From Porticoccaceae bacterium (GTDB lineage: Bacteria; Pseudomonadota; Gammaproteobacteria; Pseudomonadales; Porticoccaceae): 35,359 bases of DNA. Below, one piece after another: positions 10,466-20,782 of the stretch (position 1 is the first letter of the stretch; each line of letters begins with the position of its first letter). The position numbers and the translations under genes are program-made. A model generated the notes under the pieces. The model had not been told where the DNA came from, did no database searches, and was given only the letters and a program-made list of their open reading frames with translations. The stretch is from contig JABILI010000022.1 of the NCBI GenBank assembly GCA_018654575.1, forward strand, positions 1-35,359, written 5' to 3'.

Positions 10466-10984
10466 ATGACTAGAAAGCATATTTTTTTAATAGGTCCAAT
10501 GGGCGCCGGTAAGTCTACCATTGGTAGGGAAATGGCTAATGCATTGGGCAGGCCATTTCTTGATATCGACCATGAAGTTGTTAAATCTAGCGGGGCTGAT
10601 ATTCAATGGATATTCGACGTCGAGGGTGAAGAGGGTTTTCGTGAGAGAGAGTCTAGTGCGCTTCGGTATGCTATTGATAACGCTGTTGCAGCGGTTATAG
10701 CAACAGGGGGTGGTATTGTTCTGCGTGATGAGAACCGTATTGCTATGGCTGATGCCGGTCAAGTGGTTTATTTGTCGGCAACCAAGCAGCAGCTGTATGA
10801 ACGTACTAAGAGAGATAAAGTGCGACCTTTACTACAGGTCGATGATCGGAAAGCTGTTATCGACAGCCTATTTAATGAGAGAGATCCCCTTTATCGAGAA
10901 GTCGCTAGCCTCATTTTTTCGTCTAATGAAACCAAAGCCTCTAAGGTCGCTATGGAGCTTATTAGGACACTAGCAAATAATTAA
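10466..10984 (+). CDS. aroK: Shikimate kinase
   Basis: Phosphorylates shikimate at the 3-position in the chorismate pathway. The P-loop is GPMGAGKSTIGREMA (residues 10-24), the shikimate-binding DID motif is at LDIDHEV near residue 34, and GGGIV lies near residue 80. The LID region KRDKVRPLL follows. The 172-residue length is typical. It forms the usual aroK-aroB pair with aroB 91 bases downstream. The ribosome binding site is weak (GTGGA close to the ATG). Confidence 0.96.
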   Translation: MTRKHIFLIGPMGAGKSTIGREMANALGRPFLDIDHEVVKSSGADIQWIFDVEGEEGFRERESSALRYAIDNAVAAVIATGGGIVLRDENRIAMADAGQVVYLSATKQQLYERTKRDKVRPLLQVDDRKAVIDSLFNERDPLYREVASLIFSSNETKASKVAMELIRTLANN

Positions 10985-11075: not shown

Positions 11076-12191
11076 ATGATGAATAATTCAAAAAGTCTTG
11101 ACTCCAAGGCTTCAAAACATATCACGGTTGATTTAGGGGATAGAAGCTATCCTATCAATATCGGTCCCAAGCAAATTTCTTTGGTTGATCTTAATCAATA
11201 TATTCAGGGCGGAAAGGTTCTGATTGTTACTAATGACACGATCGCTCCTCTTTACCTAGAATCTGTCATGGCAGGTTTGGAAAACAAGAATATTGATGTA
11301 GTGACCTTGCCAGATGGAGAGCAATTTAAAAATCTTGATCATTTGAACAGTATTTTTACCAAACTTCTCGAGCAAAACCATGACCGAAAGACCACCCTAA
11401 TAGCATTGGGAGGCGGAGTTGTGGGAGATATGGCGGGTTTTGCAGCAGCGTCTTATCAGAGAGGTGTTCCTTTTATTCAAATCCCAACTACTCTATTGGC
11501 ACAGGTGGATTCGTCAGTCGGCGGTAAAACGGGAGTGAACCACCCTTTGGGCAAAAACATGGTGGGTGCCTTTCATCAGCCAGCCGCCGTAATTATAGAT
11601 ACCGACACCCTTAATACGCTGCCTGACAGGCAATTTTCTGCTGGGATGGCTGAAGTCATTAAATATGGATTGATAGTAGACTATCCGTTCTTTGAATGGC
11701 TGGAAACGAACGCTGACGCGATAATCCGGCGAGATAAAGCGGCATTGAGTGAGGCTATTGAGAGATCCTGTATCAACAAAGCAAAGATAGTGAGTGCGGA
11801 TGAAAAGGAGCATGGCATTAGAGCTATCCTTAATTTCGGTCATACCTTTGGCCATGCCATTGAGACGTTTCAGGCTTACCGGGGATGGCTGCATGGAGAA
11901 GCAGTAGCCGCCGGCATGGCAATGGCACTTGATTTGTCGATGAATGCTGGAAATCTTTCTCAGGAGGATGTTGATCGAAGTAACGCGCTAATGAGTTTTT
12001 TTTCATTACCTGTTGCTGCCCCAAAGGACATGACGGCAGATGACTTCATGAAACTTATGTATAGCGATAAGAAGGTGCTTGACGGGCAATTGAGGCTGGT
12101 TCTTTTAAGAAGTCTAGGACAGGGCTATGTTAGTCAGGACTTTGCTCAGAGATGGATAGATGCCACCCTTGCTAAGTTTTGCCGTTGTTAA
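11076..12191 (+). CDS. aroB: 3-dehydroquinate synthase
   Basis: Converts DAHP to 3-dehydroquinate, second step of the shikimate pathway, using NAD and a divalent metal. Visible motifs are [19 protein letters not shown] (NAD site), [19 protein letters not shown], and the metal-ligand segments [14 protein letters not shown] and [14 protein letters not shown] at 11063-11067 precedes the ATG by 8 bases. The 371-residue protein has about 14 extra N-terminal residues before the usual [12 protein letters not shown] start; the ATG at 11079 is an alternative. The gene normally downstream in this locus, the SPOR-domain gene damX, is missing. Confidence 0.96.
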
Positions 12192-12440
12192 TTGATTAGA
12201 TTGAATCTTAATCATCTTCTTAAACGAATAAGTGACCACTAATAACTAAAAGTTTAGTGAATACTTGTTATCAGCGCAAAATTGGTCAAAAGAGCTAACC
12301 TGCCTGACCTTTAAGGCGCAATCGAATAGCCTAAATCGGGCAAAAAGTGTAGAATATCGACCCTTTCGGCAAAAAAAATGCCGTATACGAGTGCGCGCGC
12401 AAGTATTGCAGTAATAGCCCCCAACTAAGAATCAGTGCTT
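12192..12440 (+). promoter_or_regulatory. Leader region upstream of the glutamate synthase-like gene
   Basis: About 245 non-coding bases. Visible elements are an AT-rich imperfect hairpin near 12193-12214, an inverted repeat CACTAA-N11-TTAGTG (12237-12242 and 12254-12259), a TAGAAT -10-like box at 12350-12355 without a clear -35, and a small hairpin CGGCA/TGCCG (12367-12383) with an A-only loop and no T tract. The region probably holds the promoter of the 12.4-19.7 kb gene pair. Confidence 0.4.
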
Positions 12441-15400
12441 ATGAATGATGTAAAAAACTTTGGCCTCTACGACAGTACTTTTGAAAAAAGTAGCTGTGGC
12501 GTGGGTTTTCTTACCAGAAAAGACGGTAAGCAAACGCATGAATTATTGATTAAAGGGCATGAAGCGCTTTGTGCGGTGCCTCATCGCGGAGGTATGTCAG
12601 CTGAAGGGGTTGGTGACGGAGCTGGAGTCTCAATTGACTTGTCAGTTACATTTTTCAGCAGAGTTGTCGGCGCTAGTCTAGTGCCTGGTGAGTTTGGAGT
12701 GGGTAATTTTTTCTTGCCGAATGATCAAAGTCAGCATGTTAGAGCTAAAAAACTGATTGATGACGCTCTTAGAGCCGAGGGTATGATTACGCTAGGCACG
12801 CGCAGTGTAGACGTCGATAATTCAGTGTTGCGTCCAGCGGCAATTAAATATCAGTTATCTATAGCGCAATGGGTTTTCGCGGCGCCAAAAGGAATAAGAG
12901 GCGCAGCTCTAGAAAAAAGCATTCATAAAGCGTTACTCTCAATAGAGTCAGAGGCTTATGTCGATGAGAATCTTGAAGGAATGTATCCTCTTTCAATGTC
13001 ATCTCGCATGCAGGTGCTTAAAGGGCGCCTAAATTCGCACGAAATTGTGCCTTATTTTTGTGACCTTAATGATGTGGATCAACGTATTCATACGCTCTAC
13101 TTCCATACTCGATTCTCAACGAATACAGACCCTCATCCCTCTATGGCCCAGCCATTTAGGCTGATGGCGCACAATGGAGAGTTGAATACTGATAAAAAGA
13201 ATCGATTGTCTGAGGCCGCCATTGCGAGGGCTAAAGAAAACAATATTATCAGGCCAAAAGGGCAGTCAGATAGCTGTCGTTTAGATCAAACATTACATTC
13301 TCGTGTCGTTGAAGACGACCTGGATTTAGTGACTGCGGTTGTGTCTATGATGCCACCGGCTTGGGAAAACGATACAACCTTATCGTCTCCTGTGCGCTCT
13401 ATGCTTGAATACTTTTCTTTGTATGAAGAGAAAAATGATGGTCCCGCTGCGCTTATTTTTGGCGACGGCTCGATAATTGGGGCGCGCTTAGATCGTCTTG
13501 GCTTGCGGCCATTAAGATCAATAGAAACAAAGCGTTATCTTGCGGTGATGTCTGAAGCAGGCCAGGTAGATTTTGGTGATGAGGCTGTATTAAGCCGCGG
13601 ACGGATTGAGGCTGGCGGTATGCTGTATTATGACCACCAAAAACAACGTTCTTTTACTACCTCTGAGGCTCTTGAACTCTTGGCCAGTCAGCGCGACTAC
13701 GCAAAACTGGTGGATCATGCACGCATCCTAATCGAAGACCTGCCACCGGTTCCTGAATCTGAGAAAACATCCTCGTCGCGCTATTCCGGTAATTTGTCTT
13801 TGGCGGGTCGATATGTCGCCTATTCACAGAATCAAGAATGCTTTCGATTTATGATGGATCCAATGCTGGCCACGGGTACTGAAAAGGTGTCGGCAATGGG
13901 TTATGGCAACGCGATTAATGCGCTGTCAGATAATGAAGGCGGTGTTGCTAAATATTTCTCTCAGCGGTTTGCGCAGGTCACTAATCCTCCTCTAGATTCA
14001 ATTCGTGAAGCTGAAGGGATGACGTTGCGGGTGGCTTTGGGGACCAAGCCTAATATTGGAGCAAAGGCGGGCAGGCAGATTGTGGTCCAGTCCCCGATTC
14101 TCAGTCACTCACAAATGCTGAGTATTGGCGCTCAAAAAGAGACACCGGTTGGTCATTTCCCAATGCTTTATGAGCCTGTATTCGGTAATATGAGTGCCAA
14201 CGAAGAGTCCTTGGTCAACGCGATTGATGGAATCTGTGATTCTGTAGAACACTTTGCTAGAGAGCATGGTGGCATAGCTATCATCAGCGATCGACATGTT
14301 TCTCGTGCTAATACGTCTATATCAATGACCTTAATCGTATCCGCTATTAATCAACGGTTAATAGAGTCAGGTCTGAGATTACGAGTATCACTTATTGTTG
14401 AAAGTGGACAAATTTGCTCCTCTCATCATGTTGCCTGCGCTCTTGGTTTTGGCGCATCAGCTGTATATCCCATGGGATTGCAGATGCGGGCGGAAGAAAA
14501 ATTTGCGGATAACGTCGATGGGGCTTACCTAAAGTTCACCAAAGCTGCGGAAAAGGCGTTGATGAAGACAATGGGCAAAGTTGGCCTGTGCACTGTTGAA
14601 AGTTATTCTGGTGGCGAGTTTTTTGAGCCCAACTTTTTAAATACTAATGATCCCATATTTCGGCGTTATTTTCCTAATATGAAATCCCCTGTGGGAGGCG
14701 TAGGTTTCACTGAAATCGCTCAGGCTGCTGCTGATTGGCATGAGCGTGCTCTTGCCTGTGAAGTAGAGAGCGATATACCTATGTTGGGATTATTTAAGGA
14801 ACGTGCAGAAGGCGCGGGTCATTCCTATGGGGTGACAGCGGTACGAAGTTTTGTTGAGCTCACCGAGGAAGATATTAGTTTTGATAAGAAAGGTGATGGT
14901 GATACTAATACTACTGAAGCTCTGCGGTTACTGACACTAAATCGTATGGAGGGTGCTTTCGGTATCAGTGATGAAGGCTACACTAATACCAGCTTTGATA
15001 GACTTACCCAGTCTGAAATTAATAATTTTAATATCACGCCCGGCTATAGAGACTTCTCGCGCGCTATGACTGAAGAGAGAGCGCGACGGCCTGCGGCACT
15101 TCGCGATGTTTTAGCATTTCCCGCTGACATTAGTTTTCTTTCAGAAGCTGACGATTTTCGTCATGAGATGATGTTATTCAATCGCGCAGGCAATAACCAT
15201 TTTATTATTCGAGGACTTGCATGTGAGGTTATCGGAGATGATACCTTCGCTTTGCAATTAACCGGTCCACTGCCTGATAGGGGAGATCGATTACAGGCCT
15301 TGGCTAAGTCATGCTCAGATCGTTTTGGTGTGCACATCGTTGACCAATCAGTTAGCGGGAAAATGCTATCTATTGTTGCTGCGGGGGAAGCTAGGGATTA

Positions 15401-17921
15401 CTTCGCTCGACTTCGTTCGGCACCTTCATTAGTGGACCTCAGTGATGTTCAGCCGGCCAGCGAAATCACACCACTTCTGGCATCCGGAGCAATGAGTCAT
15501 GGTGCATTGGTGGCTACAGCCCATGAAGCGGTTGCGCATGGCACCAACATGGTAGGTGGAATGTCTAACTGTGGTGAGGGTGGGGAGCATATATCTCGTT
15601 ACGGGACCATTAGAGCTTCACGTATCAAGCAGTTTGCATCAGGACGATTTGGTGTTTGGGCTGGTTATCTTGCTGACCCAATGCTTGAAGAAATTGAAAT
15701 TAAAATTGGTCAAGGTGCTAAGCCTGGAGAGGGTGGACAATTACCTGCCCCTAAAGTAAATGTAGAAATAGCGGCTGCTCGTGGAGGCGTTCCTGGAGTA
15801 GAGCTGATATCGCCGCCACCCCATCATGACACCTACTCAATTGAGGATTTGGCTCAACTTATTCACGATGCGAAAGCGGCGCGAGTCCGAGTGATTGTAA
15901 AGCTTGTGTCATCTGACGGTATAGGTACGATTGCTGTGGGCGTTGCGAAAGCGGGCGCAGACGTCATTAATGTTGCAGGTAGTACTGGTGGCACTGGCGC
16001 TGCTTCTGTTACCTCGCTTAAATACACGGGCCGCGCTGCTGAGATCGGTATTGCCGAGGTCCACCAAGCTCTTTGCGCCAATGGCCTGCGTGAGAAGGTG
16101 GTCTTACGCTGTTCCGGAGCTCATCAGACTGGGTCAGACGTGGTTAAGTCCGCTCTTATGGGGGGTGATAGCTTTGAGTTTGGCACCACTGCTCTAATGA
16201 TGCTGAAGTGCGTCATGGCTAAAAATTGTAATATAAAATGTCCTGCGGGCTTAACAACAAATCCAGAAGTATTTGATGGTGACCCACGAGCTTTAGGGCA
16301 ATATCTACTCAATATAGCTCATGAAGTTAGAGAAATTCTGGCACAACTTGGGTTACGCTCATTGCGTGAGGCTCGAGGGCGATGTGATTTTTTGCACTTG
16401 CTAGATCACCCATCATCGGTTGGTCAGCTCGATCTGCGTGCAATGTTGACCGTGGTTGAAGAATACAAGATTGATAATCCGATCTATATGGAGCGAGATT
16501 TTACGGTGGATGATGGCTTCCTGGCCGTGATCCGAGATGCCTTAATTGATAAAAAACAAGTATGCACTCAACTGCCTGGCAGTCAGTTTCTTAATAACTG
16601 TAATAAGAGCGTTGGTGGTCAGTTGGCCATAGACATTGAGCGAATGCTTAATTATGAACTTCGAGAGTCACAATTACCCGCAGTCTTGAAAGATGGCCGT
16701 GGACGCCGATTTCTCGCTAGTAGAGCTGTACGAATCGCCACTCACGGTACTGCGGGGCAGTCCTATGGCGCTTTTTGTAACGATGGTATGGTCTTAGAGC
16801 ATACTGGTACTTGCAATGATGGCGTTGGGAAAACTGCGTGCGGAGGAGAAATTATTATTCATGCGCCGCCTGGTGGTAGTGACAAGCCTGGGACTAATGT
16901 CTTAATTGGTAATTTCGCATTGTTTGGTGCAACCGGAGGTCGCATATTCATTGAAGGTCAGGCCGGAGATCGATTTGCCGTGCGCAATTCTGGTGCGACT
17001 GCCGTAGTTGAAGGCGTCGGTGATTTCTGCGCTGAATATATGACAAACGGAGCGGTGCTTAACTTAGGTTCGTTTGCCAAAGGTTTTGGCAATGGTATGT
17101 CAGGTGGTTTTGCCTATCAGTACGACCCCTATGGAAAATTCACCAATAGTATTAGCCATGACTCGGTAATACTAGGCTCGCTAGCAGATTCGGCGGAAGA
17201 GGCTGAAATACACGCTCAGGCCGTACATACGTTGTTGGAGTGGCATGTTGATGCTACCAGCTCTAAAAAAGCGACTTGGCTATTGGAACACTGGGCTGAA
17301 GAGCGAGCCAATTTTGCGTATATCACTCCTAAAGCGCTGCTGCAGTACCAAGATTATGAAGCAATTTTAGAGGTTAAATCACGCAAGGAGCTTTTGGAAG
17401 AGCTCGCGGTTGCTCTTGCCGCATTTCAAGTCAATAAATTAAAGCGTGCGTGGCGTTCGGGTGAGCCCGTGATAAAGGGCAGCGTGCCAGATATTGAACT
17501 GGCTAGTAGTGATATGTATGAGCTAGTTAATACCTACTCTGTGCTAGATGCAGCACAAAAAATATCATTAAAACGTTTACCTAATGTGGCCTCTATAGAG
17601 CATCCAGATGCAATTAAGGCAACTCGCAATCTCATACTAACAGAGGACTTTTCTCTCATGAACGGGTTGTTGAGGCATGCGCGAGAAGCGATTTCCGCGT
17701 ATAGTGCACCCGAATTAGCGGCGATGATTGCGGGTAAACGGCTCAATGATTTTAAGGAGACGTTGAGGTTGCGAAACATTCTATCAATGGATAGTCCCGC
17801 GACCTATGGTTGGATCTTGTATCAACAGCAAAAAAACAAAATTGCGTTGGGGCATGTCCCCAGCTTTGAAGAGCTTTTTGCACATAATGCTCTAAATGAT
17901 ATCTTACCCAATGTGGGTTAA
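12441..17921 (+). CDS. Atypical glutamate synthase large subunit (GltB-like), about 1826 residues
   Basis: Has the full GltB domain order. A class II glutamine amidotransferase has candidate nucleophile C19 (CGVGF; the 18 preceding residues would be a propeptide), HTRFSTNT and AHNGELNT. The central domain follows. The FMN/glutamate synthase domain shows GEGGE, IKQFASGRFGV, GAKPGEGGQLP, SPPPHHDTYSIEDLAQLI and KLVSSDGIGT near residue 1154. Candidate iron-sulfur cysteines are C1257, C1263 and C1267. The GxGxG beta-helix spans about 1436-1563. E. coli GltB has about 1486 residues; the excess here is an insert at about 894-994 and a long tail after 1565. ATG at 12441 is preferred over GTG at 12435, which is too close to the ribosome binding site. 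No gltD follows; a diflavin reductase does, 15 bases on. Expected role is glutamine + 2-oxoglutarate to glutamate; the divergent motifs leave other amidotransfer chemistry possible. Confidence 0.85.
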   Translation: MNDVKNFGLYDSTFEKSSCGVGFLTRKDGKQTHELLIKGHEALCAVPHRGGMSAEGVGDGAGVSIDLSVTFFSRVVGASLVPGEFGVGNFFLPNDQSQHVRAKKLIDDALRAEGMITLGTRSVDVDNSVLRPAAIKYQLSIAQWVFAAPKGIRGAALEKSIHKALLSIESEAYVDENLEGMYPLSMSSRMQVLKGRLNSHEIVPYFCDLNDVDQRIHTLYFHTRFSTNTDPHPSMAQPFRLMAHNGELNTDKKNRLSEAAIARAKENNIIRPKGQSDSCRLDQTLHSRVVEDDLDLVTAVVSMMPPAWENDTTLSSPVRSMLEYFSLYEEKNDGPAALIFGDGSIIGARLDRLGLRPLRSIETKRYLAVMSEAGQVDFGDEAVLSRGRIEAGGMLYYDHQKQRSFTTSEALELLASQRDYAKLVDHARILIEDLPPVPESEKTSSSRYSGNLSLAGRYVAYSQNQECFRFMMDPMLATGTEKVSAMGYGNAINALSDNEGGVAKYFSQRFAQVTNPPLDSIREAEGMTLRVALGTKPNIGAKAGRQIVVQSPILSHSQMLSIGAQKETPVGHFPMLYEPVFGNMSANEESLVNAIDGICDSVEHFAREHGGIAIISDRHVSRANTSISMTLIVSAINQRLIESGLRLRVSLIVESGQICSSHHVACALGFGASAVYPMGLQMRAEEKFADNVDGAYLKFTKAAEKALMKTMGKVGLCTVESYSGGEFFEPNFLNTNDPIFRRYFPNMKSPVGGVGFTEIAQAAADWHERALACEVESDIPMLGLFKERAEGAGHSYGVTAVRSFVELTEEDISFDKKGDGDTNTTEALRLLTLNRMEGAFGISDEGYTNTSFDRLTQSEINNFNITPGYRDFSRAMTEERARRPAALRDVLAFPADISFLSEADDFRHEMMLFNRAGNNHFIIRGLACEVIGDDTFALQLTGPLPDRGDRLQALAKSCSDRFGVHIVDQSVSGKMLSIVAAGEARDYFARLRSAPSLVDLSDVQPASEITPLLASGAMSHGALVATAHEAVAHGTNMVGGMSNCGEGGEHISRYGTIRASRIKQFASGRFGVWAGYLADPMLEEIEIKIGQGAKPGEGGQLPAPKVNVEIAAARGGVPGVELISPPPHHDTYSIEDLAQLIHDAKAARVRVIVKLVSSDGIGTIAVGVAKAGADVINVAGSTGGTGAASVTSLKYTGRAAEIGIAEVHQALCANGLREKVVLRCSGAHQTGSDVVKSALMGGDSFEFGTTALMMLKCVMAKNCNIKCPAGLTTNPEVFDGDPRALGQYLLNIAHEVREILAQLGLRSLREARGRCDFLHLLDHPSSVGQLDLRAMLTVVEEYKIDNPIYMERDFTVDDGFLAVIRDALIDKKQVCTQLPGSQFLNNCNKSVGGQLAIDIERMLNYELRESQLPAVLKDGRGRRFLASRAVRIATHGTAGQSYGAFCNDGMVLEHTGTCNDGVGKTACGGEIIIHAPPGGSDKPGTNVLIGNFALFGATGGRIFIEGQAGDRFAVRNSGATAVVEGVGDFCAEYMTNGAVLNLGSFAKGFGNGMSGGFAYQYDPYGKFTNSISHDSVILGSLADSAEEAEIHAQAVHTLLEWHVDATSSKKATWLLEHWAEERANFAYITPKALLQYQDYEAILEVKSRKELLEELAVALAAFQVNKLKRAWRSGEPVIKGSVPDIELASSDMYELVNTYSVLDAAQKISLKRLPNVASIEHPDAIKATRNLILTEDFSLMNGLLRHAREAISAYSAPELAAMIAGKRLNDFKETLRLRNILSMDSPATYGWILYQQQKNKIALGHVPSFEELFAHNALNDILPNVG

Positions 17922-17936
17922 GACCGAGGCCTTTTG

Positions 17937-19688
17937 ATGAAGCTCCCATTTATTCCTGAAGATGCTCCGTTTACCGGTGACCAAAAATCTTGGTTAGCAG
18001 GATTTTTGGCGGGCATGCAGTCGGCAAAGGCGATGGTTGGAAGTCAGGCCGGCGCATTACTTAAGTCAGGGGCAGTATCAGCGCCCGTGCTTAATATTCT
18101 TTATGGTACTCAAACAGGTAATACTGAAGGTCTGGCGATGGATGCGGCAGACGTAGCACGAGGTCAAGGGTTTGAGCCAATAGTGCAGGGTTTAGATGAT
18201 GTCTCGATTGAGGAATTCTCTGCGATGGAGCGAGTCATTATTGCCATAGCGACGTATGGTGAGGGAGAGATGCCTGATAATACCCAGTTATTTTGGGAGG
18301 CTCTTTCAGCTTCCAATATGCCTCAATTACCGGCAATGCAATTTGGCATTCTAGCGCTAGGGGATACTGGCTACGATGAGTTTTGCCAAGCAGGTAAATT
18401 ACTGGACGTTCGGCTTGAGCAACTTGGAGCCAAGCGGTTGGTTGACCGGATAGACTGTGATGTTGACTACGAGGATATGGCTGAGGAGTGGATGGCTAGA
18501 GTGATTCCTCTTGCTAACGATGGCAGTGCAGTAGCACCTAAGGCAGATGTGATACCAGCCGTGGTCAAATCAATATGGAACCGTAAGAATCCTTTTCCAT
18601 CGACTATAACGGCCAACGTTCTATTGTCTGGAGAATCATCAGCTAAGGAAATACGTCATTATGAGTTTGATCTTGCCGATAGTAATCTAAGCTATGAAAC
18701 TGGCGATGCGCTAAACGTGATGCCAATTAACAACGGTACTTTAGTTTCCAGTCTTCTACAAAGGTTGGTCATAGCGCCAGGCACAGTGCCTGAGGGTGAA
18801 ACTAAAACGATTGACGAATTGCTGACTTATAACTATGAAATATCGACACCCTCGCGCGAATTTTTAGCCGCGATAGAGAGACAGGCGGAGAATGATTTCT
18901 TTAGCAATGTAATGAGTAATGGCGACAAAGAAGCCTTAGCTGATTACTTATGGAGTAAGGATACGCTTGATTTATTAAATTTAAATCCTAGTGTCATGTT
19001 GTCACTTGAAGAATTCTTGGCACTATTGAGGCCATTACAGCATCGTGCTTATTCTATTTCTTCTAGTCCCAAGCAGCATCCGGGGTCTGTGCATTTGACC
19101 GTCGCCTCGGTGCGCTGGCAAGCAGAGGGTAGAGAGCATCAGGGTGTTTGCTCAACATTTTTGGCTGATCGGGTTATAGAGGGCGGTAAAGTAGGAATCT
19201 TCGTCTCGCCCAATAAAGCATTCCGTATTCCGGACAATGACGATGCGCCAATAATAATGGTTGGTCCAGGTACCGGAATTGCTCCATTCAGAGCTTTTTT
19301 GGAAGAGCGCCAGGTACGCAATGCAAAGGGTCCGAATTGGTTGTTCTTCGGCGATCAGACCAGAGCCGCTGACTTTATTTATGAAGAGCAGTTACTGGAA
19401 ATGCAAAATTCTGGACTGTTAACTCGTCTTGATTTGGCATTTTCGCGGGATCAAAAAGAGAAAATTTATGTCCAAACCAAAATGCATGAACAGGGCGCAA
19501 GTATCTATGAGTGGCTTGAGCAAGGCGGCTATTTTTATGTTTGTGGTGATGCAACGCGCATGGCTAAAGACGTAGATCAGGCGTTATGCGACCTCATAGC
19601 TGAGCATGGCGACCTGACTGCTGACAAATCTGGAGAATACGTTAACAACCTAAAACGTGAAAAGCGTTATCTGCGAGACGTATACTAG
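17937..19688 (+). CDS. CysJ-like NADPH diflavin reductase
   Basis: Moves electrons from NADPH through FAD to FMN. The 583 residues match CysJ in length and order: an N-terminal FTGDQKSWLAGFLAG segment, flavodoxin domain with FMN loop ILYGTQTGNTE (54-64), TYGEGEMPDN and ALGDTGYDEFC, FAD domain with RAYS (370-373) and GVCS (403-406), NADPH site GPGTGIAPFRAF (from 443), YVCGDATRMAKDV, and the CysJ-type C-terminus RYLRDVY. ATG at 17937 is chosen over the TTG one codon earlier; CGAGG precedes it by 7 bases. It is 15 bases after the GltB-like gene, so surely co-transcribed, and occupies the position of gltD before hemE. No sulfite reductase haemoprotein (cysI) is adjacent. It may feed the GltB-like protein (inference) or be a misplaced cysJ. 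Confidence 0.88.
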   Translation: MKLPFIPEDAPFTGDQKSWLAGFLAGMQSAKAMVGSQAGALLKSGAVSAPVLNILYGTQTGNTEGLAMDAADVARGQGFEPIVQGLDDVSIEEFSAMERVIIAIATYGEGEMPDNTQLFWEALSASNMPQLPAMQFGILALGDTGYDEFCQAGKLLDVRLEQLGAKRLVDRIDCDVDYEDMAEEWMARVIPLANDGSAVAPKADVIPAVVKSIWNRKNPFPSTITANVLLSGESSAKEIRHYEFDLADSNLSYETGDALNVMPINNGTLVSSLLQRLVIAPGTVPEGETKTIDELLTYNYEISTPSREFLAAIERQAENDFFSNVMSNGDKEALADYLWSKDTLDLLNLNPSVMLSLEEFLALLRPLQHRAYSISSSPKQHPGSVHLTVASVRWQAEGREHQGVCSTFLADRVIEGGKVGIFVSPNKAFRIPDNDDAPIIMVGPGTGIAPFRAFLEERQVRNAKGPNWLFFGDQTRAADFIYEEQLLEMQNSGLLTRLDLAFSRDQKEKIYVQTKMHEQGASIYEWLEQGGYFYVCGDATRMAKDVDQALCDLIAEHGDLTADKSGEYVNNLKREKRYLRDVY

Positions 19689-19726: not shown

Positions 19727-20782
19727 ATGAAACAACTTAAAAATGATCGCTTTTTAAAGGCTTTATTCCGTCAACCTGTTGATAAAACGCCAGTATGGAT
19801 GATGCGTCAGGCTGGCCGTTATTTGCCTGAATATCGACAGGTCAGATCAAAGGCTGGCGATTTTATGAGCCTTTGTAAAAATACTGAGCTGGCATGCGAG
19901 GTAACCTTGCAACCCCTAGAGCGGTTTGAGTTAGACGCAGCCATCTTATTTTCAGACATTTTAACCATCCCAGATGCCATGGGACTAGGGTTATATTTTG
20001 AGGAAGGAGAGGGCCCAAAGTTTCGTAAACCTGTTAGAAGCGAAGCTGACATAGAGCAGCTGCAGGTCGTTAATACCGCCAAGGATCTGAGTTATGTTAC
20101 TGATGCGGTGAGCATGATCCGGCGAGAATTAAATGGTCGAGTACCCTTGATAGGATTCTCGGGAAGTCCCTGGACGTTGGCCACTTATATGATTGAGGGC
20201 CAGAGCAGTCGAGACTTTGCTAGAGCTAAAACAATGCTCTATACCCAGCCTGAGTTAATGCACCAGTTACTCGAAAAGCTGACATTGTCTGTTATTGATT
20301 ATTTGAATGCTCAGATTCGCGCTGGAGCGCAAGTGGTGCAGATATTTGATACTTGGGGCGGAGCATTGGAGCATCAAGCCTATAAGATGTTTTCATTGGC
20401 CTACATGCAGAGAATCGTTAAAGGCTTAATTACTCATGCAGATGGGCGAGATGTGCCTGTTATTCTTTTTACTAAGGGCGGCGGCCATTGGTTAGAAGTA
20501 ATGGCTAGCACGGGCTGTCACTGTCTAGGGCTGGATTGGACTGTAGATATAGGAGAGGGAAAAAAACGTGTCGGTAGTCAGGTGTCGCTCCAAGGCAATA
20601 TGGACCCAGCGGTTTTACGAGCTGACAAGCAAACCATTGAAAGCCAAGTACAGACTATTTTGCAGTCCTTCGGTTCAGGCAATGGCCACATATTTAACCT
20701 TGGCCATGGCATTACTCCAGATATTGATCCCGCCAAAGCAAAAATATTTGTTGACGCCGTACATCGTTTTTCTGAGGGTTGA
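19727..20782 (+). CDS. hemE: Uroporphyrinogen decarboxylase
   Basis: Decarboxylates the four acetate side chains of uroporphyrinogen III to give coproporphyrinogen III in haem synthesis. Signature [16 protein letters not shown] lies at residues 21-36. Others are [12 protein letters not shown] with the catalytic Asp region, [24 protein letters not shown], and [13 protein letters not shown] near the C-terminus. The 351-residue length is normal. Its place after the glutamate synthase locus is conserved with Pseudomonas. It converges on psd with only 17 bases between stops. Confidence 0.97.

Follow-up and report, generated by a model that had tools for sequence, protein, structure and literature searches.

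Which protein supplies electrons to a glutamate synthase whose large-subunit gene is followed by a gene for a diflavin reductase instead of gltD? The question is raised by a 35,359-nucleotide stretch of DNA (contig JABILI010000022.1 of assembly GCA_018654575.1, hereafter the window) from a Porticoccaceae bacterium, in which a long form of gltB and, 15 bp after its stop codon, a gene for a reductase with flavin mononucleotide (FMN), flavin adenine dinucleotide (FAD) and NADPH domains lie between aroB and hemE. The host is a SAR92/HTCC2207-like gammaproteobacterium with a genome of 2.42 Mb (97.55% complete). Comparisons of sequence, gene order and distribution suggest, with a probability that we put at about 0.82, that the pair of genes specifies a glutamate synthase whose electron-input subunit is of a third kind, besides GltD and ferredoxin.

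In the known enzyme, electrons from NADPH enter at the FAD of GltD and then pass through two [4Fe-4S] clusters to the [3Fe-4S] cluster and the FMN of GltB; the partners of glutamate synthase given in the accessible part of the 2021 review that describes this route are the GltD type, separate or fused, and ferredoxin (PMC8097209). No description of the present pair was found in the open literature, subscription journals being mostly outside the scope of the search, and the pair is absent from the accessible part of a further article (PMC11768086).

The reductase and GltD across genomes

Within the genus, 50 genomes were surveyed, some of them incomplete. The reductase was found in 14 at 69-100% identity (three others hold only fragments, with E above 1e-4), and canonical GltD (Fer4_20, E ~1e-40) was found in 34, none of them among the 14 reductase carriers; G012 and G067, which are 71 and 73% complete, have neither. 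The absence of any genome with both fits the claim of the first-pass annotation that a diflavin reductase has displaced GltD. Long gltB is followed by the reductase gene and then by hemE in the window and at all 13 other loci of the genus, and is preceded by aroB at 13 of the 14, the contig ending at the remaining one. Canonical gltB occupies the same slot between aroB and hemE at six of six canonical loci, where GltD lies between gltB and hemE by coordinates. Long gltB is the sole GXGXG match in the window's genome. The only Fer4_20 match in this genome (G000) was considered as a GltD and rejected; it reaches about 60 bits and belongs to a 590-aa protein (L002:1453-3225, contig C71) in which a GltD-like oxidoreductase part is combined with C-terminal 4Fe-4S motifs. 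Among the 14 carriers, a match of this size occurs only in G000 and G015, and neither is taken as GltD.

Sulfite and nitrite reductases (PF01077) were found in 37 of the 50 genomes, but in only five of the 14 carriers, and these five are exactly the ones with a second CysJ-like gene, which adjoins the PF01077 gene. The window's genome is one of the five, its cysI having its own cysJ beside it. The other nine carriers (G006, G015, G024, G026, G030, G032, G059, G066 and G068; 74-94% complete) gave no PF01077 match, and this way of assimilating sulfate may be closed to such lineages. Since PF01077 is confined to five carriers, each with a separate cysJ, the reductase beside gltB is not there for sulfite. 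A second gltBD together with a cysI dependent on this reductase, which would have spoken for another role, was thus not found in the window's genome.

Long GltB ends in a C-terminal tail specific to its family (Table 1). A scan of GTDB species genomes for this tail alone matched 121 stretches, 47 of which encode a relative; this number is a lower bound, because the scan demands exact peptide patterns. The 47 loci lie in Gammaproteobacteria, Alphaproteobacteria and Actinomycetota and include Porticoccaceae, other Gammaproteobacteria, SAR116, Shimia, Pseudovibrio, Hyphomicrobium, Azorhizobium, Ancylobacter, Methylopila, Hansschlegelia, Mycobacterium and relatives, Rhodococcus and Nocardia. At all 47, long gltB and the reductase gene are adjacent, and no match to E. 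coli GltD (E<=1e-8) lies within the 10-21 kb of DNA at each locus. Together with the 14 loci of the genus, window included, this bears out the expectation that the adjacency would be conserved and that a CysJ-like gene, not gltD, would accompany tail-bearing GltB homologs. Six of 398 Pseudomonadota genomes, the window's own among them, carry the tail, and the reductase gene is next door in the other five; their GltB identity falls as low as 50%, and none of the five has a reductase identical to the others. In genome G159 (L182, L185), long gltB and the reductase gene come immediately after a canonical gltB-gltD, which would place both electron routes in tandem. Nine plasmid records also carry the tail, and the pair is present in all five examined: in four annotated records it is named glutamate synthase (or glutamate synthase-related protein) and sulfite reductase alpha or flavoprotein subunit, and in the fifth, which is unannotated, it was found by tblastn.

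The two proteins also vary together. Pairwise distances of GltB and of the reductase are correlated across 49 loci (r=0.955), and none of 2000 permutations was as high. In a quick tree of the FMN domain, 37 long GltBs lie on one side of a single branch and 16 canonical ones on the other (Shimodaira-Hasegawa-like approximate likelihood ratio test, 100). The tree of flanking genes, as built with L125/L126 (joint branch 1.45) and L151 included, has two changes between the long and canonical forms, L125/L126 falling among six canonical rows. In the tree of the reductases, GltB-linked rows do not form one side of a branch; its outgroups are two CysJ and three other rows, too few for a single origin of the reductase to be supported.

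The two proteins of the pair

The first-pass description of the locus, a GltB-like gene of about 1826 codons followed after 15 bases by a CysJ-like reductase in the aroB-hemE slot, agrees with the open reading frames (ORFs) and with Pfam (Table 1). All four glutamate synthase domains are present in long GltB in canonical order, each above its Pfam cut-off. The protein is 36-37% identical to E. coli GltB and to canonical GltB of the same genus, and scores 1041 bits against the NCBIfam equivalog NF008730, below the cut-off of 1047. The catalytic cysteine and the three cluster cysteines are each kept in 50 of 50 full-length members, and the latter align with Cys1102, Cys1108 and Cys1113 of Azospirillum brasilense, which we take to be cluster-binding residues. 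A deletion of 4-5 residues follows directly after the third cluster cysteine; given this and a spacing between the second and third cysteines of three residues, the surface by the cluster is remodeled. A loop in the FMN domain reads SGA-Q-T where canonical GltB has DGGLKT.

Table 1. Positions in the window of the pair, its domains and the neighboring genes
Feature	Position	Strand	Basis or remark
aroK	10466-10984		Pfam
aroB, left flank of gltBD slot	11076..12191	+	Pfam; synteny
Long-type gltB, glutamate synthase large subunit, 1826 aa	ATG 12441..17921 stop	+	Pfam, NCBIfam, alignments
Class-II glutamine amidotransferase domain, catalytic Cys19 at start	12495..13706	+	PF00310 (GATase_2), E 3e-83
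Central domain (Glu_syn_central)	13815..14627	+	PF04898, E 5.9e-72
Family-specific insert, ~aa 838-982, edges approximate	14952..15386	+	Missing in canonical GltB
FMN/synthase domain (Glu_synthase)	15420..16355	+	PF01645, E 9e-103; aligned to 1ea0/6s6s
Presumed [3Fe-4S] ligands Cys1257-x5-Cys1263-x3-Cys1267	16209..16241	+	Alignments
GXGXG domain	16698..17201	+	PF01493, 178.9 bits
Family-specific C-terminal tail, aa 1634-1826	17340..17918	+	Predicted all-helical; no cysteine in window copy
Diflavin (FMN-FAD-NADPH) reductase, proposed electron-input subunit replacing GltD	ATG 17937..19688	+	Pfam, NCBIfam, motifs
Flavodoxin (FMN) domain of reductase	18096..18488	+	PF00258 (Flavodoxin_1), E 8.3e-30
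FAD- and NADPH-binding domains of reductase	18582..19577	+	PF00667 (FAD_binding_1), PF00175 (NAD_binding_1); SRDQ..K.YVQ kept
hemE, right flank of gltBD slot	19727..20782	+	Pfam; synteny

The ferredoxin-loop insertion is absent from long GltB: in alignments the GEGGE-to-IKQ spacing equals that of E. coli GltB and is five residues shorter than that of the A. brasilense chain, so that the NADPH-type spacing read from the sequence at first pass holds, and a reading of long GltB as a ferredoxin-type glutamate synthase was ruled out. Between the central and FMN domains sits the insert, the stretch at aa 806-1000 measuring 189-198 aa in long GltB and 41 aa in canonical GltB. Its model has a pLDDT (predicted local distance difference test) of 70, weaker than that of the tail, and its C-terminal ~80 residues are predicted to be alpha/beta; the tail, of ~190 aa, is predicted to be all-helical with a pLDDT of 83.5. 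In a fold search with the tail, no hit in the PDB fell below E 0.3 (best VIA Z 5.8), families outside the lists remaining possible. The insert showed weak likeness only to ArgR C-terminal and KipI-type domains (E 0.06-0.3, Z <=5.6), which was not used. Pfam searches on 35 members each returned scattered matches only, the best at E 0.02 for the insert and 0.0093 for the tail.

In at least 95% of 58 members, the reductase retains the core of its FMN, FAD and NADPH motifs, including SRDQ..K.YVQ and the C-terminal RDVY that it has in common with CysJ. Only three cysteines are conserved (in at least 90% of the 58), thus there is no sign of an iron-sulfur site. The best-matching members are 41-42% identical to E. 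coli CysJ, and the window's reductase is 37% identical to the CysJ of its own genome. It passes the PRK06214 model for "sulfite reductase subunit alpha" (447.5 bits, cut-off 432) and falls below the cut-off of the NCBIfam cysJ equivalog TIGR01931 (584 vs 668 bits). A second diflavin reductase was seen in mycobacteria at L134:349-1938 (minus strand) and at a similar place in L135, L138, L140 and L162, ~3 kb upstream of long gltB; it is 43-45% identical to the window's, and the L134 copy is ~50% identical to the GltB-linked reductases of mycobacteria. At L146:10612-12121, on a contig with Ns from a metagenome-assembled genome (MAG), the reductase match is in two pieces, through assembly error or decay.

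By Pfam naming the gene order in the window is aroK, aroB, gltB, reductase and hemE. An alternative in-frame GTG for gltB lies at 12435; the reductase ORF has a TTG at 17934 upstream of its ATG, with GAGG directly 5'. A scan for sigma-70 promoters and terminators found matches rarer than in shuffled sequences. The nearest GltB relatives (92-96% identity) come from Porticoccaceae and SAR92 MAGs, those of HTCC2207 MAGs being slightly more distant.

Proposed electron route and its possible link to iron

Under the proposed route, NADPH would reduce the FAD of the reductase, which would then reduce its FMN. The reduced flavodoxin domain would dock on long GltB and pass single electrons to the [3Fe-4S] cluster, from which the FMN of GltB would be reduced, and this in turn would reduce 2-iminoglutarate, formed from 2-oxoglutarate and glutamine-derived ammonia, to glutamate. 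We infer both the transfer of electrons from the reductase to long GltB and glutamate as the product. By analogy with ferredoxin in the plant-type enzyme, a flavodoxin domain would be a natural one-electron donor to a [3Fe-4S] cluster. Candidate docking sites for this domain are the tail, the insert and the remodeled loop after the cluster, each of them specific to the family paired with the reductase.

The pair may have been selected because it spares iron, a view held with less confidence than the electron route itself. Without the two [4Fe-4S] clusters of GltD, a protomer would need ~3 iron atoms instead of ~11 (3+8). Flavin carriers are known to take over from iron-sulfur carriers when ferredoxin is replaced by flavodoxin to save iron. 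Upstream regions were scanned with general box consensuses. Within 350 bp upstream of the pair, an IdeR-box-like site (3-7 mismatches of 19) is present at 13 of 14 Actinomycetota loci, a signal that no permuted palindrome equaled (0/200, and 0/500 when seven lineages were used). For the RirA box, compared without permuted controls, nothing striking was seen.

The gene after the reductase is HemS-like at 19 of 57 loci, 10 of them among 18 alphaproteobacterial and nine among 15 actinobacterial ones. Of the 19, 14 were scanned with Pfam and 11 exceeded the HemS cut-off, L136, L145 and L168 being similar by BLAST only; the match at L144 is short. HemS/ChuX-type genes follow the reductase at L134, L137-L140, L145-L147, L149, L155, L156, L160, L162 and L171 (L145 and L162 by similarity only), and such a neighbor of glutamate synthase in Alphaproteobacteria and Actinomycetota could reflect a shared iron response. 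A flavodoxin gene is the third gene at five of six Rhodococcus loci, identified by Pfam at L153 and by tblastn at L148, L150, L152 and L154. Siderophore-uptake genes lie ~2 kb beyond the copy on a Ketogulonicigenium plasmid. Elsewhere, the accessible part of one article describes glutamate synthase mRNA as a predicted, structure-probed target of the iron-sparing RNA IsrR, its stability being unaffected, and counts it among "putative or demonstrated" targets of RyhB (PMC9410917).

Taken together, we lean toward regarding the pair as a third, iron-sulfur-poor class of glutamate synthase found in at least two phyla, which would serve as an iron-starvation isozyme in actinobacteria and in alphaproteobacteria such as Azorhizobium, and as a full replacement of GltBD in some lineages of the iron-limited surface ocean (SAR92, SAR116).

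Alternative readings and comparison with known enzymes

Several observations weigh against a diflavin-fed, iron-sparing glutamate synthase. Members of one lineage are not independent, and the exclusion of GltD and the reductase in the genus is one or a few events, not 48 independent cases. The cluster cysteines are spaced C-x5-C-x3-C, one residue shorter than the canonical C-x5-C-x4-C of solved structures, and the [3Fe-4S] type is for this reason presumed. A large NAD-type glutamate dehydrogenase (GDH) occurs in 39 of the 50 genus genomes, including the window's (pieces on contigs C81 and C3), so the pair cannot be claimed as the sole source of glutamate, and an argument to that effect was dropped after the search for GDH families. 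The same search gave, barely above the cut-off, a 24-bit match to PF00208 in G000 that was rejected, as the protein (L184) reads as a zinc-type or quinone oxidoreductase. Beyond the genus, 19 of 24 other carrier genomes (those of 24 of the 31 loci L132-L162) have a Fer4_20 match elsewhere; the five without one measure 1.4-2.6 Mb and are titled SAR116 cluster, Rickettsiales, Porticoccaceae, Gammaproteobacteria and Rhodospirillaceae. Judged by these domain matches, the pair is therefore mostly accessory beside GltD-type proteins where genomes are large, and in small genomes it may occur without them.

As for iron, IdeR-like sites also turn up when canonical gltB is examined in nine of these actinobacterial genomes (score 21.7, with 1/500 controls as good; the long pair in these nine scores 27.7, with 0/500). 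The sites precede canonical gltB in five of the nine genomes (L187 and L189-L192, from M. wolinskyi and four Rhodococcus), mostly as one site common to the four Rhodococcus, and hint at iron control of both forms. IdeR-like sites are thus not special to the new form; their presence on both would be in keeping with a swap between the two under iron control. The Irr/ICE-box signal in Alphaproteobacteria is weak (11/200 control motifs as good). In Gammaproteobacteria no Fur-box signal was found (162/200 control motifs as good), and a HemS-like gene follows at none of 24 loci, hence the iron reading draws no support from the window's own lineage.

That the reductase is simply CysJ, merely lying beside gltB, is very improbable. 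Its 36-42% identity to CysJ, the PRK06214 match, the names in plasmid records and the cysI of the window's genome would all suit it, yet the score lies below the cysJ equivalog cut-off, the reductase stands beside long gltB at every locus examined, and the survey of sulfite reductases, which were not found in most carriers in the genus and have their own adjoining cysJ in the rest, largely refutes it; the first-pass label "CysJ-like" stands as homology and fails as a role. It is also improbable, if less so, that ferredoxin or free flavodoxin feeds long GltB while the reductase serves another acceptor, such as a HemS-like heme protein. Heme breakdown requires reductant, and HemS-like or, in Rhodococcus, flavodoxin genes do stand next to the reductase; but the pair is kept in gammaproteobacterial loci that have no HemS-like gene, long GltB has no ferredoxin loop, the search for GltD in carriers of the genus gave none, and the distances of the two proteins are tightly correlated.

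We give similarly little weight to the possibility that long GltB is no glutamate synthase and has another product or a regulatory role. The low overall identity to canonical GltB, the altered FMN-domain loop, the GltD-type domains elsewhere in most of the other carrier genomes and the NAD-GDH of most genus genomes could be so explained. Against this, long GltB retains the full set of four domains together with its catalytic and cluster cysteines, the gene occupies the gltBD slot and is the sole GltB found in the window's genome, G159 has it in tandem with gltBD, and G059 (80% complete) has the pair with neither a PF05088 GDH nor a Fer4_20 match. Unlikely, though a good deal less so than any of these, is that the electron route is as proposed and the benefit is not iron sparing, the exchange reflecting tolerance of oxygen or iron-sulfur damage, or chance replacement. 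Loss of [4Fe-4S] clusters would also lower oxidative damage, and both the missing Fur signal and the IdeR-like sites before canonical gltB suit such a benefit; the heme-utilization and flavodoxin third genes, the siderophore genes near one plasmid copy and the IdeR-like sites in several actinobacterial lineages speak for iron.

If long GltB is fed by the diflavin reductase, its relation to known systems can be set out as follows. With NADPH-dependent GltBD (structures 6s6s/6s6x and 7mfm, and E. coli gltBD) the pair shares the amidotransferase, central, FMN and GXGXG domains, the catalytic and the three cluster cysteines, the genome slot in the genus and, presumably, NADPH as donor; it differs in having a reductase free of iron-sulfur clusters instead of GltD, and in the insert, tail and shorter cluster loop of its large subunit. 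As in ferredoxin-dependent glutamate synthase (1llw/1ofd), the large subunit alone carries FMN and cluster, and electrons would be delivered one at a time by a carrier protein, in this case a flavodoxin domain, whereas long GltB has no ferredoxin loop and has a dedicated NADPH reductase encoded next to it. The reductase resembles CysJ (6efv, 9c91) in its flavodoxin-FAD-NADPH architecture, N-terminal segment and NADPH motif, but adjoins GltB, not CysI, and occurs where no sulfite reductase was found. A flavin carrier replaces an iron-sulfur carrier as in the exchange of ferredoxin for flavodoxin, but here a whole subunit of a biosynthetic enzyme would be exchanged, with a large subunit that varies along with it.

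The finding also bears on naming, as annotators who meet the label "sulfite reductase" might credit genomes with sulfate assimilation although no sulfite reductase was found in them. Glutamate synthase is a main entry of ammonia into amino acids, and the diflavin route would be the third by which it receives electrons. If the proposal is true, the enzyme would be freed from two low-potential [4Fe-4S] clusters, and nitrogen assimilation could be tied to iron supply in ocean and soil, with some ocean and scattered soil bacteria possibly needing less iron to assimilate nitrogen.

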